Shown: one piece after another, positions 28,045 through 30,707 of the stretch
Layout of the letters: every line of letters begins with the position of its first letter
Position numbering within the stretch: the stretch's first letter is position 1
Source: Aphanocapsa sp. GSE-SYN-MK-11-07L
GTDB lineage: Bacteria; Cyanobacteriota; Cyanobacteriia; Thermosynechococcales; Thermosynechococcaceae
Length of the DNA: 37,475 nt
Direction of reading: 5' to 3'
Assembly: GCA_019359715.1 (NCBI GenBank)
Contig: JAHHGS010000113.1
Coordinates: forward strand, 1-37,475
Translations under genes and position numbers: made by a program
The notes under the pieces: model-generated
The model's database searches: none
What the model was told of the DNA's origin: nothing
What the model saw: the letters and a program-made list of their open reading frames with translations, nothing else

Positions 28045-28575
28045 TTAAAAATGTTTTTTGACGTATGAAATAACAAACGGTGTCATCAATTGCTCTAGCT
28101 CTAGGATGATTTTGCGATCAGTTTTAGACCAAATTCTAGGCTGTCCAAAAACACAGGGTTGTAGAACTCCCCACAAATTTCCAGCCTGCACTAAGTGAGC
28201 GTGAATTAAAGCCCGATGCCCAAAATTCGCTTGTTCAAATTCTCGATTAACAATCTCTGGATCAGCAGTTTCAACATCTTCCACAAAAATAGAGGGTTTA
28301 GCCTGGAGGGCGGCTGCAAAAAGCGGATCGGCTTGAGGCAATGAGGCTGGCTCTTGCTGCCAAACAGTAGTTTTTAGATCAGGAAATTGAGAGCTACGGC
28401 GCCAGCAGTCAGTGACTTTGCCCATTTTGGTCGAAGGGTGCCGCACATAAAGAAAGCAGCGATCGCACTCTAACCACTCTCCCAATTTAGGTAAAAGCTC
28501 GGAAAAAACGACCTCTGGCTGATCATTGGTTTGCAAAACTTGTTGGAGAAAGGAGGTTGGATTTTGGTCTGTCAT
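28045..28575 (-). CDS. GAF domain protein
   Basis: A 176-residue protein made of a single GAF domain: an N-terminal helix (SFLQQVLQTNDQPEVVFSELLPKLGEWLECDRCFLYVRHP), the central sheet and loop, and a C-terminal RALIHAHLVQAGNLWGVLQPC plus helix. GAF domains bind small ligands, tetrapyrroles or nucleotides. The cysteine of the canonical bilin-binding site is not obvious here, so photoreceptor function is not supported. No output domain is present. It is divergent from the ECF sigma gene 182 bp away. Confidence 0.85.
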   Translation of the reverse strand: MTDQNPTSFLQQVLQTNDQPEVVFSELLPKLGEWLECDRCFLYVRHPSTKMGKVTDCWRRSSQFPDLKTTVWQQEPASLPQADPLFAAALQAKPSIFVEDVETADPEIVNREFEQANFGHRALIHAHLVQAGNLWGVLQPCVFGQPRIWSKTDRKIILELEQLMTPFVISYVKKHF

Positions 28576-28757
28576 ACTTTTGGGTGTGGAGCCTTAGAGG
28601 TTATTTAGCCTATGCATCAACAAATTCAAGTCTGGCAATTTTGATTTATTGGAGCTTGATGATTTACATAAGTAAAAATTATCAGTAAAACTGAACCCTT
28701 TGCTGAGATTGCCAGTCTAAAGCCTTGTAGTCTGCATCCGTTAGGAATAACGAGTTG

Positions 28758-29336
28758 ATGGTGTCAATTGACCGAGCCAAGAAGCGTCAGCCTAGCGGTG
28801 AATCTGAGCACGATTTAATTTGTCAGTGTTTAAGGGGTGATTCTGAGAGTTTTCGCCAGATTTACCAGCGTTATCAGCGACAGGTGCGATCGATTTTGTT
28901 TCGGTTGTGTGGAGAATCGCAGCTAGATGATTTAACCCAAGAAGTGTTTTTGCGGGCTTGGAAAGGGTTGCCCAAAATGCAAAACCCGGAACGGTTTGCA
29001 GCTTGGCTTTATCGAATTGCCTGGAATATCGCCACCGATTATCGACGGGGAGCTGCCCAAACTCGATCGCGGTTGGAATCTTTGAGTCAGCAGACTCAGA
29101 CGCAAACTCCTGCCCCTGATTTGATGCACTTGCACTATCAAGATTTAGTGCAGCGAGGGTTGGCCCATCTTAGCTTCGATCACGGGAGCGTATTGATTTT
29201 GCACGATTTGGAAGGCTTATCGCAAAATCAGATTGCCGAGATTCTGGCAATTCCGGCTGGCACTGTTAAATCTCGGCTATCTCGGAGCCGCCTTGCGCTC
29301 AAGCAGTTTTTACACCAGCAAGGAGTTCAGCTATGA
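28758..29336 (+). CDS. ECF-type RNA polymerase sigma factor
   Basis: A 192-residue sigma-70-family group 4 factor. Region 2 runs from FRQIYQRYQRQVRSILFRLCG through DDLTQEVFLRAWKGL and RFAAWLYRIAWNIATDYRR. Region 4 is FDHGSVLILHDLEGLSQNQIAEILAIPAGTVKSRLSRSR, the helix-turn-helix that reads the -35 box. A TTG one codon upstream (28755) and a GTG one codon downstream are also possible starts; the ATG at 28758 is preferred. Its stop overlaps the next ATG by 4 bp, the usual coupling of an ECF factor to its anti-sigma. Confidence 0.93.
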   Translation: MVSIDRAKKRQPSGESEHDLICQCLRGDSESFRQIYQRYQRQVRSILFRLCGESQLDDLTQEVFLRAWKGLPKMQNPERFAAWLYRIAWNIATDYRRGAAQTRSRLESLSQQTQTQTPAPDLMHLHYQDLVQRGLAHLSFDHGSVLILHDLEGLSQNQIAEILAIPAGTVKSRLSRSRLALKQFLHQQGVQL

Positions 29337-29734
29337 AATATTCCTCTGAACGATCCGATGATCAATCTGAGTCGACGCCAGAAGAAGCCAGAGTGGTTGA
29401 GTTTTTGCAGTTGCACAGCCCCAGCCCTCCAATCGCCCCACCAAGACTAGAGAATCAGATGATGGCAGCGGTAAGTGAGCAGCCCCAGCAACTGCCAGTC
29501 ACTCGGATTCAATCAACCCTCTACCCGCTGTGGCAGCGCTGGCTTGCCTATGCCATGCCAGTCGCAGTCATGGTTGGGCTGCCCTTGTTCTGGCTGGGGC
29601 GAGCATTGTCTCCTCAACCCCTGACTGCCACTGAGTATGTCCAATTGGAAGCTTTTCTAGAAACCAATTGGGAGGATTTGTCCACCAGTCGAGATCGCTC
29701 GTGGATCAGTGATTTGAGTCATCAGTACGACTAG
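29333..29734 (+). CDS. Putative membrane anti-sigma factor
   Basis: A 133-residue single-pass protein: a cytoplasmic N-terminal ~70 residues with helical EEARVVEFLQLH and PRLENQMMAAV, one membrane span (about 70-90, LAYAMPVAVMVGLPLFWLGRAL), and a ~40-residue acidic exterior tail. There is no HxxxCxxC zinc motif, so it is not a ZAS-type anti-sigma; similarity to known ones is by layout. The role is inferred from the 4-bp overlap with the ECF gene and from topology. A Spy/CpxP-like gene follows at 66 bp. Confidence 0.7.
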   Translation: MKYSSERSDDQSESTPEEARVVEFLQLHSPSPPIAPPRLENQMMAAVSEQPQQLPVTRIQSTLYPLWQRWLAYAMPVAVMVGLPLFWLGRALSPQPLTATEYVQLEAFLETNWEDLSTSRDRSWISDLSHQYD

Positions 29735-29800
29735 TTGTTTAGTTTATTGAGTCGTTCCATCTAGTTACACCGCAATTGTCTAATTTACGAGGTAGTTCCG

Positions 29801-30322
29801 ATGTCTTTACGCCTGTCCTTACGCAGTTTTTCAATGGTGAGCTTATTGGCGCTGACGTTGAGTGGGGTGGCGGCCTTTGTTGCCCCGCCTGCGCTCTTAT
29901 CTCAGACCACAGATTCGCCCTCTGGCACCGGTCAGCCCGATCTGCCGGCTAGTTCTGGACAAACCGGCAAGCGCGGGCAATGGCTACAAGACCTCAACTT
30001 AACGCCAGAGCAACTCAAGCAATTACAGGCGGTGCGGCAGCAGTATAGCGGTCAGCTAACTCAGAAAGCCCAAAATCTGAGGCAAGCCCGCCAAGAAATG
30101 GTGCAGATGATGTCTGGCACAGCCACAGACCAACAATTGCGAGCTAAGTTTGACCAAATCGAAGCTTTGCATCAAGAAGTGACAAAATTGCGGTTTGAAA
30201 GCATGTTGGCCATGCGATCGCTGCTCACCCCTGAGCAGCGATCGCAATTCGCCCAAAAAATGCAGCAGCACCGCCAAGGCATGCGCGATCGGGGGCTACA
30301 AAACCGCCAGAACAATCTTTAA
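29801..30322 (+). CDS. Spy/CpxP-like periplasmic protein with LTxxQ motifs
   Basis: A 173-residue exported protein: signal peptide at residues 1-34 (hydrophobic SMVSLLALTLSGVAAFVAPPALL), a low-complexity Ser/Gly/Pro linker, then an alpha-helical hairpin with two LTPEQ motifs (LNLTPEQLKQL and SLLTPEQRSQF), the hallmark of Spy/CpxP/CnrX-like proteins. Such proteins act as periplasmic chaperones or stress or metal sensors. His is scarce and Cys absent, which argues against classical CnrX-type metal binding. It follows the ECF/anti-sigma pair, so it may sense or relieve envelope stress in that circuit (inference). Confidence 0.85.
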   Translation: MSLRLSLRSFSMVSLLALTLSGVAAFVAPPALLSQTTDSPSGTGQPDLPASSGQTGKRGQWLQDLNLTPEQLKQLQAVRQQYSGQLTQKAQNLRQARQEMVQMMSGTATDQQLRAKFDQIEALHQEVTKLRFESMLAMRSLLTPEQRSQFAQKMQQHRQGMRDRGLQNRQNNL

Positions 30323-30707
30323 TTGAGCGTTCAGTGACAATCAAAAAAGTGGCACCTAAAATTTGGGTAATCTGAGCAGACAAACTTACTCTAAGGATAT
30401 GGAAGTATTTGGAGTTTTAAAGGCTTTACCTGGGCCTTGTAGCAACGCTAAAGGCTCAAGCTTTGTCTCCAAGTTCTGAATCTGCGCCTGGCCGTGCAAT
30501 TTTCCATCCCTGTATCTTATGATTTGTCTCCGCTGTACCCATCTGCAAGCATAAATGGGGGTAGGTTAGTCACCTGCCCCCATTTTGGTTTTTTGTCGCG
30601 ATCTAGGTTGGCGATCGCTGTTGATCTGGGGCACAATAGGTCAGACTATGTTAAGACTTTGGCAAAATTTAAGATTTAGCCGAAGGTATTTCCTACTAAT
30701 TTGCAAT
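30323..30707. other. Gene-free stretch after the Spy gene
   Basis: About 385 bp with no supported reading frame. A strong plus-strand terminator sits at 30554-30594, some 230 bp after the Spy stop, so the preceding bases are either a long 3' UTR or a small RNA. I could not match them to 6S, tmRNA, RNase P RNA or SRP RNA. Confidence 0.5.
30554..30594 (+). terminator. Intrinsic terminator
   Basis: A 13-bp stem AATGGGGGTAGGT / ACCTGCCCCCATT (one wobble pair) with a 5-base loop, followed by TTGG and six T. It lies between the Spy gene and the UDP-sugar genes. Confidence 0.9.

Follow-up and report, generated by a model that had tools for sequence, protein, structure and literature searches.

The nickel/cobalt system CnrYXH of Cupriavidus metallidurans is built of three parts, a periplasmic partner, a membrane inhibitor and a sigma factor. 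On pMOL28 the genes are ordered cnrY-cnrX-cnrH, and the metal site of CnrX is His-based. In E. coli the sigma factor RpoE has a single-pass inhibitor, RseA, from which it is released through regulated proteolysis, and a further partner, RseB. The chaperones Spy and CpxP, which are run by BaeSR and CpxAR, have a fold in common with CnrX, and some members of this fold act as sensors or in feedback. Another ECF factor of cyanobacteria, SigG, has a downstream partner, SapG, which binds it in the yeast two-hybrid assay (PMC2758279).

A 2009 review of cyanobacterial sigma factors lists SigH for Synechocystis PCC 6803, PCC 7002 and BP-1 and leaves it blank for PCC 7942 and PCC 7120; it reports that nothing was then available on which genes SigH-type factors control, and the accessible part of its text names no anti-sigma factor, Spy partner or target of SigH (PMC2758279). 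According to the excerpts available, the sigH transcript is induced late after heat (PMC2758279, PMC3264485) and late in sulfur starvation (PMC2491639), and an extended SigH promoter motif had already been predicted by Todor et al. 2020 (as cited in PMC8155712). SigG is placed there in an ECF cluster different from that of SigH, with a predicted GGAAC/GTC motif and not the extended one (PMC8155712); like the locus described here, it combines an ECF sigma factor with a downstream partner.

The sigma factor and its neighbours

The window, a stretch of 37,475 nucleotides from Aphanocapsa sp. GSE-SYN-MK-11-07L, contains an ECF sigma gene followed by genes for a small membrane protein and a Spy-like protein, Spy1 (Table 1). 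An earlier note on this DNA had described a 4-bp overlap between the first two genes and a 66-bp gap before the third, whose product carries two LTPEQ motifs. Sequence and open reading frames bore this out; the overlap is ATGA (start at 29333, stop at 29336). The hairpin behind Spy1 has seven G-C pairs among its 14, a loop of 5 and a T-rich tail; six terminator-like sites were found in the region compared with 2.4 in shuffles, and this one was by far the longest.

Table 1. Coordinates of the sigma factor locus and its predicted control elements.
Feature	Positions	Strand	Details
Predicted self-regulated ECF promoter	28692-28720	+	TGAACC-N17-GTCTAA (-35, -10)
ECF sigma gene	28758-29336	+	ATG 28758, stop 29336; 192 aa
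Probable anti-sigma gene	29333-29734	+	133 aa
Spy-like gene (Spy1)	29801-30322	+	173 aa; two LTPEQ motifs
Intrinsic-terminator-like hairpin, may end the operon	30553-30585	+	14-pair stem

The sigma factor matched Pfam Sigma70_r2 and Sigma70_r4_2 and passed the NCBIfam equivalog PRK12518 (NF009171) with 270 bits at a cut-off of 208. When its profile was compared with solved structures, E. coli RpoE was nearest (7.8e-32), followed by SigW (6.4e-30), and CnrH was more distant (3.6e-14). PRK12518 is common to this protein and the cyanobacterial SigH-type ECF factors, such as Sll0856 of Synechocystis PCC 6803 and Tlr0317 of BP-1. Most likely, judging by the phyletic pattern and place of its orthologues, the protein is the SigH type of the cyanobacterial reviews. 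Bell 2017 is said to describe the regulon of an ECF factor of Nostoc punctiforme. In a family that includes a Richelia (f7) the sigma gene was found in only one listed genome, which fits the SigH blank for PCC 7120 in the part of the review available (PMC2758279).

Matches to the sigma factor at 1e-35 were present in 43 of 194 genomes of the phylum and 155 of 388 of the class. We examined 51 loci, 30 from the 194-genome search and 21 named ones, with L042 (which lacks Spy) and L043 and L044 (which repeat L008 and L014) excluded; among the more distant loci L060-L115, L060 and L061 were looked at. The anti-sigma gene directly followed the sigma gene in all 51 and the Spy gene was present in 50, where four of the anti-sigma and six of the Spy calls were made by eye after the script had missed them. 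The 4-bp overlap was found in 39 of 47 parsed orthologous loci. Nearly every relative examined keeps the three genes together. The one exception, L010, lacks an adjacent Spy gene and resembles the Gloeomargaritales locus L042; in both, a ribosomal protein S15-like gene (by eye) follows the sigma and anti-sigma genes. The full trio was also present, at a sigma identity of 36-38%, in a Nitrospinota bin (L058) and two Gloeobacterales loci (L057, L059). The Nitrospinota bin has the same promoter too, which may point to gene transfer, to an origin further back or to a bin of mixed content.

In the literature searched, with most subscription journals outside it and some sources available in part, no anti-sigma factor, Spy partner or SigH regulon was named, which given this coverage is weak evidence of novelty. 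Both the sigma factor and a promoter motif have already been published; the partners are little described and the predicted regulon is new.

The membrane protein and the Spy-like protein

The second protein has two short helices at residues 16-28 and 39-49, a membrane helix at about 64-91 and a predicted periplasmic helix at 99-131. In the AlphaFold2 model (pLDDT 77) a Pro-rich linker joins the two N-terminal helices; as the pTM was 0.28, the topology alone was used. Sequence searches gave little: no Pfam family at E 1, a weak match to NF052375 antisigma (1e-4, 22 of 100 bits) and no meaningful match in a profile search of the PDB. Among 22 aligned sequences F24, P33 and E40 were invariant, and a segment beyond the membrane was conserved as well. 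The protein's profile matched 42 of the 194 genomes at 1e-12 or below, and comparison by hand showed that each of the 42 belongs to the 43 with the sigma gene; three further genomes gave weak matches alone (0.004-0.01). From its adjacency to the sigma gene, its topology and this co-occurrence, the protein is probably an anti-sigma factor. The motif HxxxCxxC was found in 0 of 47 automatically parsed orthologues. Membership in the zinc-binding anti-sigma (ZAS) class was therefore rejected, and the single-pass protein without a zinc motif that had been described from the window alone was upheld; the inhibitor appears to be of a small type lacking that motif.

Spy1 has a hydrophobic, signal-like N-terminus and matched both LTXXQ (PF07813, 1.8e-9; 38.6 bits at a gathering score of 24.3) and Metal_resist (PF13801, 1.7e-10, above the cut-off). 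Its PF07813 score, its LTxxQ motifs and the helical hairpin of its model agree with the LTXXQ family; against the NCBIfam Spy model it remained below the cut-off (42.9 of 174 bits). The best PDB match of its profile was Spy (3oeo, 1.5e-10). The model is a long helical hairpin (pLDDT 81, pTM 0.60), for which ZraP, CnrX, CpxP and Spy were among the top Foldseek matches (probability 0.98-1, E 0.08-0.2), with no match at E 0.001. VIA-align gave Z of 9.5 to 10.7 for the Spy1 relatives, values that unrelated coiled coils also reach. For these two reasons we base the fold assignment on the highest-ranking matches and on the sequence families, from which Spy1 appears to be a Spy/CpxP-like protein with the fold common to CnrX, CpxP, ZraP and Spy.

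Among 21 aligned Spy orthologues no column held Cys above 6%. The sole column with His above 15% had it in 62% of the sequences and has Phe in the window; the next reached 15%. A conserved His/Cys set is therefore missing, as had been noticed for Spy1 itself, and in this the family differs from CnrX. The same note had likened the trio to a Cnr system ordered H-Y-X. That order was wrong for Cupriavidus, and the window runs sigma, anti-sigma, Spy. The anti-sigma model has two short helices ahead of the membrane helix. Between CnrY and the anti-sigma factor hhalign gave a probability of 2.3% (P 0.02), which is chance level, and a likeness to CnrY was not supported. CnrX aligned weakly with Spy1 (probability 10%, P 0.003), and CnrH and the window's sigma factor aligned as ordinary ECF relatives (probability 98.5%). 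What stood of the analogy is the Spy fold common with CnrX and the three-part architecture. Membership in CnrYXH was rejected by gene order, the missing ligand set and the chance-level CnrY alignment; in function the trio may still bear some likeness to Cnr, combining a sigma factor with an inhibitor in the membrane and a partner in the periplasm.

The other two known systems resemble the locus in part. The inhibitor is single-pass here as in RpoE-RseA, although its cytoplasmic part of about 60 residues is smaller than that of RseA, and the Spy-like gene stands where E. coli has RseB. With the Spy and CpxP chaperones Spy1 has the LTXXQ family and the fold in common, but it is encoded together with a sigma factor, whereas the E. 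coli proteins are under BaeSR and CpxAR.

The predicted promoter and sites in relatives

We counted all pairs of 4-mers with gaps of 13-19 in 46 orthologous regions upstream of the sigma gene, after near-duplicates (L018, L023, L032, L033, L047) had been dropped. The top dyad, level with an overlapping pair, was GAAC-N18-GTCT at fixed spacing in 43 regions, compared with 8 for the best dyad in 20 Markov-shuffled sets, and the other three regions had GAAC-N18-GTC. All 43 dyads start with TGAAC, and the consensus reads TGAACCTTTT...GTCTAAA. A self-regulated promoter had been expected upstream of 28758, and the conserved dyad predicts one at 28692-28720. A separate promoter, expected before 29801, was not seen: 44 regions before the Spy genes (Spy was not judgeable in L200 and L201) had no ECF-like dyad in common, and the commonest dyad, in 16 regions, probably belongs to the anti-sigma gene, whose last part these regions cover.

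Within the 5.1-Mb genome the site at 28692-28720 was the sole match both to TGAACC-N17-GTCTAA (reversed control 1) and to GAAC-N18-GTCTAAA (reversed control 11); on this basis the sigma factor may here act mainly on its own operon. With a relaxed pattern there were 97 matches compared with 174 in the reversed control, so no further site is claimed in this genome. The exact site was absent upstream of the gene for an LTxxQ protein on another contig, C8, and a single search of this genome for small secreted targets, which carries little weight, turned up none.

The relatives gave a wider set of predicted sites. TGAACC-N17-GTCTAA had 76 matches in the 43 sigma-bearing genomes, against 27 in the reversed control. 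The stricter pattern TGAACCTT-N15-GTCTAA, outside which the window's own site falls because of a C at its seventh base, gave 119 matches in 388 genomes, the control 8; 105 were in sigma-bearing genomes (control 5) and 14 in genomes lacking a sigma match (control 3). A stricter site was thus present in 78 of 155 sigma-bearing genomes compared with 11 of 233 others (Fisher p 2e-26, uncorrected for relatedness).

For 97 of these 119 sites we examined the flanking sequence; the other 22 were placed by hand before the sigma gene according to their position, and L169 was omitted from the tally. The sites precede the sigma gene (39), a second Spy-like gene, Spy2 (27), the gene for an HlyD/RND-type, efflux-type adaptor (10), a group-2 sigma gene (10; best NCBIfam model PRK05949, 467 of 530 bits for a 230-residue piece) and other positions (33) behind which no large recurrent family was found. 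In sigma-bearing genomes, these last included a DUF1800 protein (L273), an S41 PDZ protease (L246, and L242 judging by its start) and several small proteins that begin with a signal-like stretch and match no Pfam family (L260, L270, L274, L275). By sequence, the predicted targets in relatives are largely exported or membrane proteins.

Some details of these sites were noted in passing. The proteins at L260, L274 and L275 have about 100 residues, look alike by eye and lie 30-110 bases behind the predicted sites. DUF1800-like proteins recur beside Spy1 or behind a site (L037, L043, L056, L273, L274; L273 tested, the rest by eye). In six genomes of one genus (L261-L264, L266, L268) sites of the form TGAACCTTG...GGTCTAA have no clear gene behind them.

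Five of the 14 sites in sigma-minus genomes precede Spy2 (L211, L216), adaptor (L210, L240) or S41 (L239) genes. These five assemblies are listed as 84-94% complete, and the sigma gene may lie in the part that was not assembled. The remaining sites in sigma-minus genomes precede unrelated genes or none, and those before MotA/ExbB (L202, L203) and DUF928 (L251) genes were not counted as targets.

For Spy2 and the group-2 sigma gene we compared sites with the presence of the sigma factor, in samples that are uneven and uncorrected for shared ancestry. The best 30 loci of a Spy2 profile search came from 9 sigma-bearing and 21 sigma-minus genomes. The exact site preceded Spy2 in five of the 9 (seven when two near matches are added, an eighth being doubtful) and in one of the 21 (G185, from a family in which others carry the sigma gene). 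TGAC-N20-TGAC was found instead in 18 of the 21 sigma-minus upstream regions, which suggests that Spy2 has there been switched to another regulator. The spaced TGAC repeats (L286-L309) lie mostly about 80-105 bases before Spy2, in the place of the ECF site.

The group-2 sigma gene was preceded by a site in 19 of 34 sigma-bearing genomes compared with 2 of 15 others tested; 41 sigma-bearing and 34 other genomes had a match in all, and the sample joined the best 30 loci to a further 20 from sigma-bearing genomes, chosen on purpose, less L321 (no start found); G058 and G083, where sites had already been identified, were among those left out. Two sigma-minus f7 genomes have GAAC-N18-GTCT before this gene, so sites of this kind may be recognised by a different ECF factor.

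Proposed signal, release and output

Co-conservation, gene order, the conserved promoter and the sites before genes for exported and membrane proteins led us to consider it probable that the three genes form one self-activating envelope-stress operon. In the unstressed cell the anti-sigma factor would use its two short N-terminal helices to keep the sigma factor tethered to the membrane. When proteins unfold in the periplasm or damage arises there, the state of the anti-sigma factor's periplasmic helix would change, and the sigma factor would be freed either when a Spy-like protein occupying this helix is drawn off to its clients or when the anti-sigma factor is cut. Once free, it would transcribe its own operon from the predicted promoter, and the additional Spy-like chaperone and anti-sigma factor would ease the damage and close the loop. 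Counterpoints in the window's own genome are that it has no second strong site and that the better of its two group-2 sigma matches is without one. A sigH mutant of Synechocystis proved tolerant of every condition tried (PMC3264485), which also counts against this explanation, as do the Gloeomargaritales loci with no adjacent Spy gene and the sites in sigma-minus genomes.

That the three genes are ordinary neighbours, separately transcribed and with no functional link, we regard as extremely improbable in view of the overlap, the adjacency across the phylum, the single conserved promoter and the long terminator-like hairpin. It is also very unlikely that the trio is a genuine metal sensor like CnrYXH, for which the PF13801 match of Spy1, its CnrX fold and a copper-ATPase-like gene (by eye) 89 bases behind a site in one relative (L146) would speak: the His/Cys set is not conserved, the anti-sigma factor is not detectably CnrY-like and the gene order differs. 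Synechocystis sigH, moreover, fell to 0.30 under high copper, according to the available part of that study (PMC4182526). The missing ligand set, together with predicted targets that are largely exported or membrane proteins, makes an envelope signal likelier than metal, in line with the earlier note's view of the input.

A closer competitor concerns the role of Spy1. It may be output only and no sensor, with the sigma factor released by regulated proteolysis of the anti-sigma factor as in RseA; we hold this to be a serious possibility, if somewhat short of an even chance. The Gloeomargaritales loci, which keep sigma and anti-sigma genes with no adjacent Spy, the second Spy family as a separate predicted target in many genomes and the conserved anti-sigma segment beyond the membrane all favour it, whereas the Spy gene beside the pair in nearly all loci and the sensor or feedback members of the Spy/CpxP/CnrX fold argue for a closer involvement of Spy1. 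A bolder form of the envelope-stress operon, which we regard as doubtful, would make the module a principal sensor of protein quality in the envelope of the cyanobacteria that carry it, with Spy1 itself as the sensing part, and would add, in several lineages, a cascade from the sigma factor to a group-2 sigma factor. Spy1 would then grip the periplasmic helix of the anti-sigma factor and let go once unfolded envelope proteins draw it away, and the group-2 factor (SigB/SigD-like by family) would tie envelope damage to the general stress response.

With the envelope-stress operon as the preferred reading, a likely partner of SigH, its predicted promoter and a list of candidate targets are now at hand. 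The locus would offer a defined envelope-stress reporter for photosynthetic bacteria, and its small sigma/promoter pair would be of use in engineering. The region upstream of the operon is common to a second gene: a GAF-domain protein is encoded on the minus strand at 28045-28575, divergent from the sigma operon.
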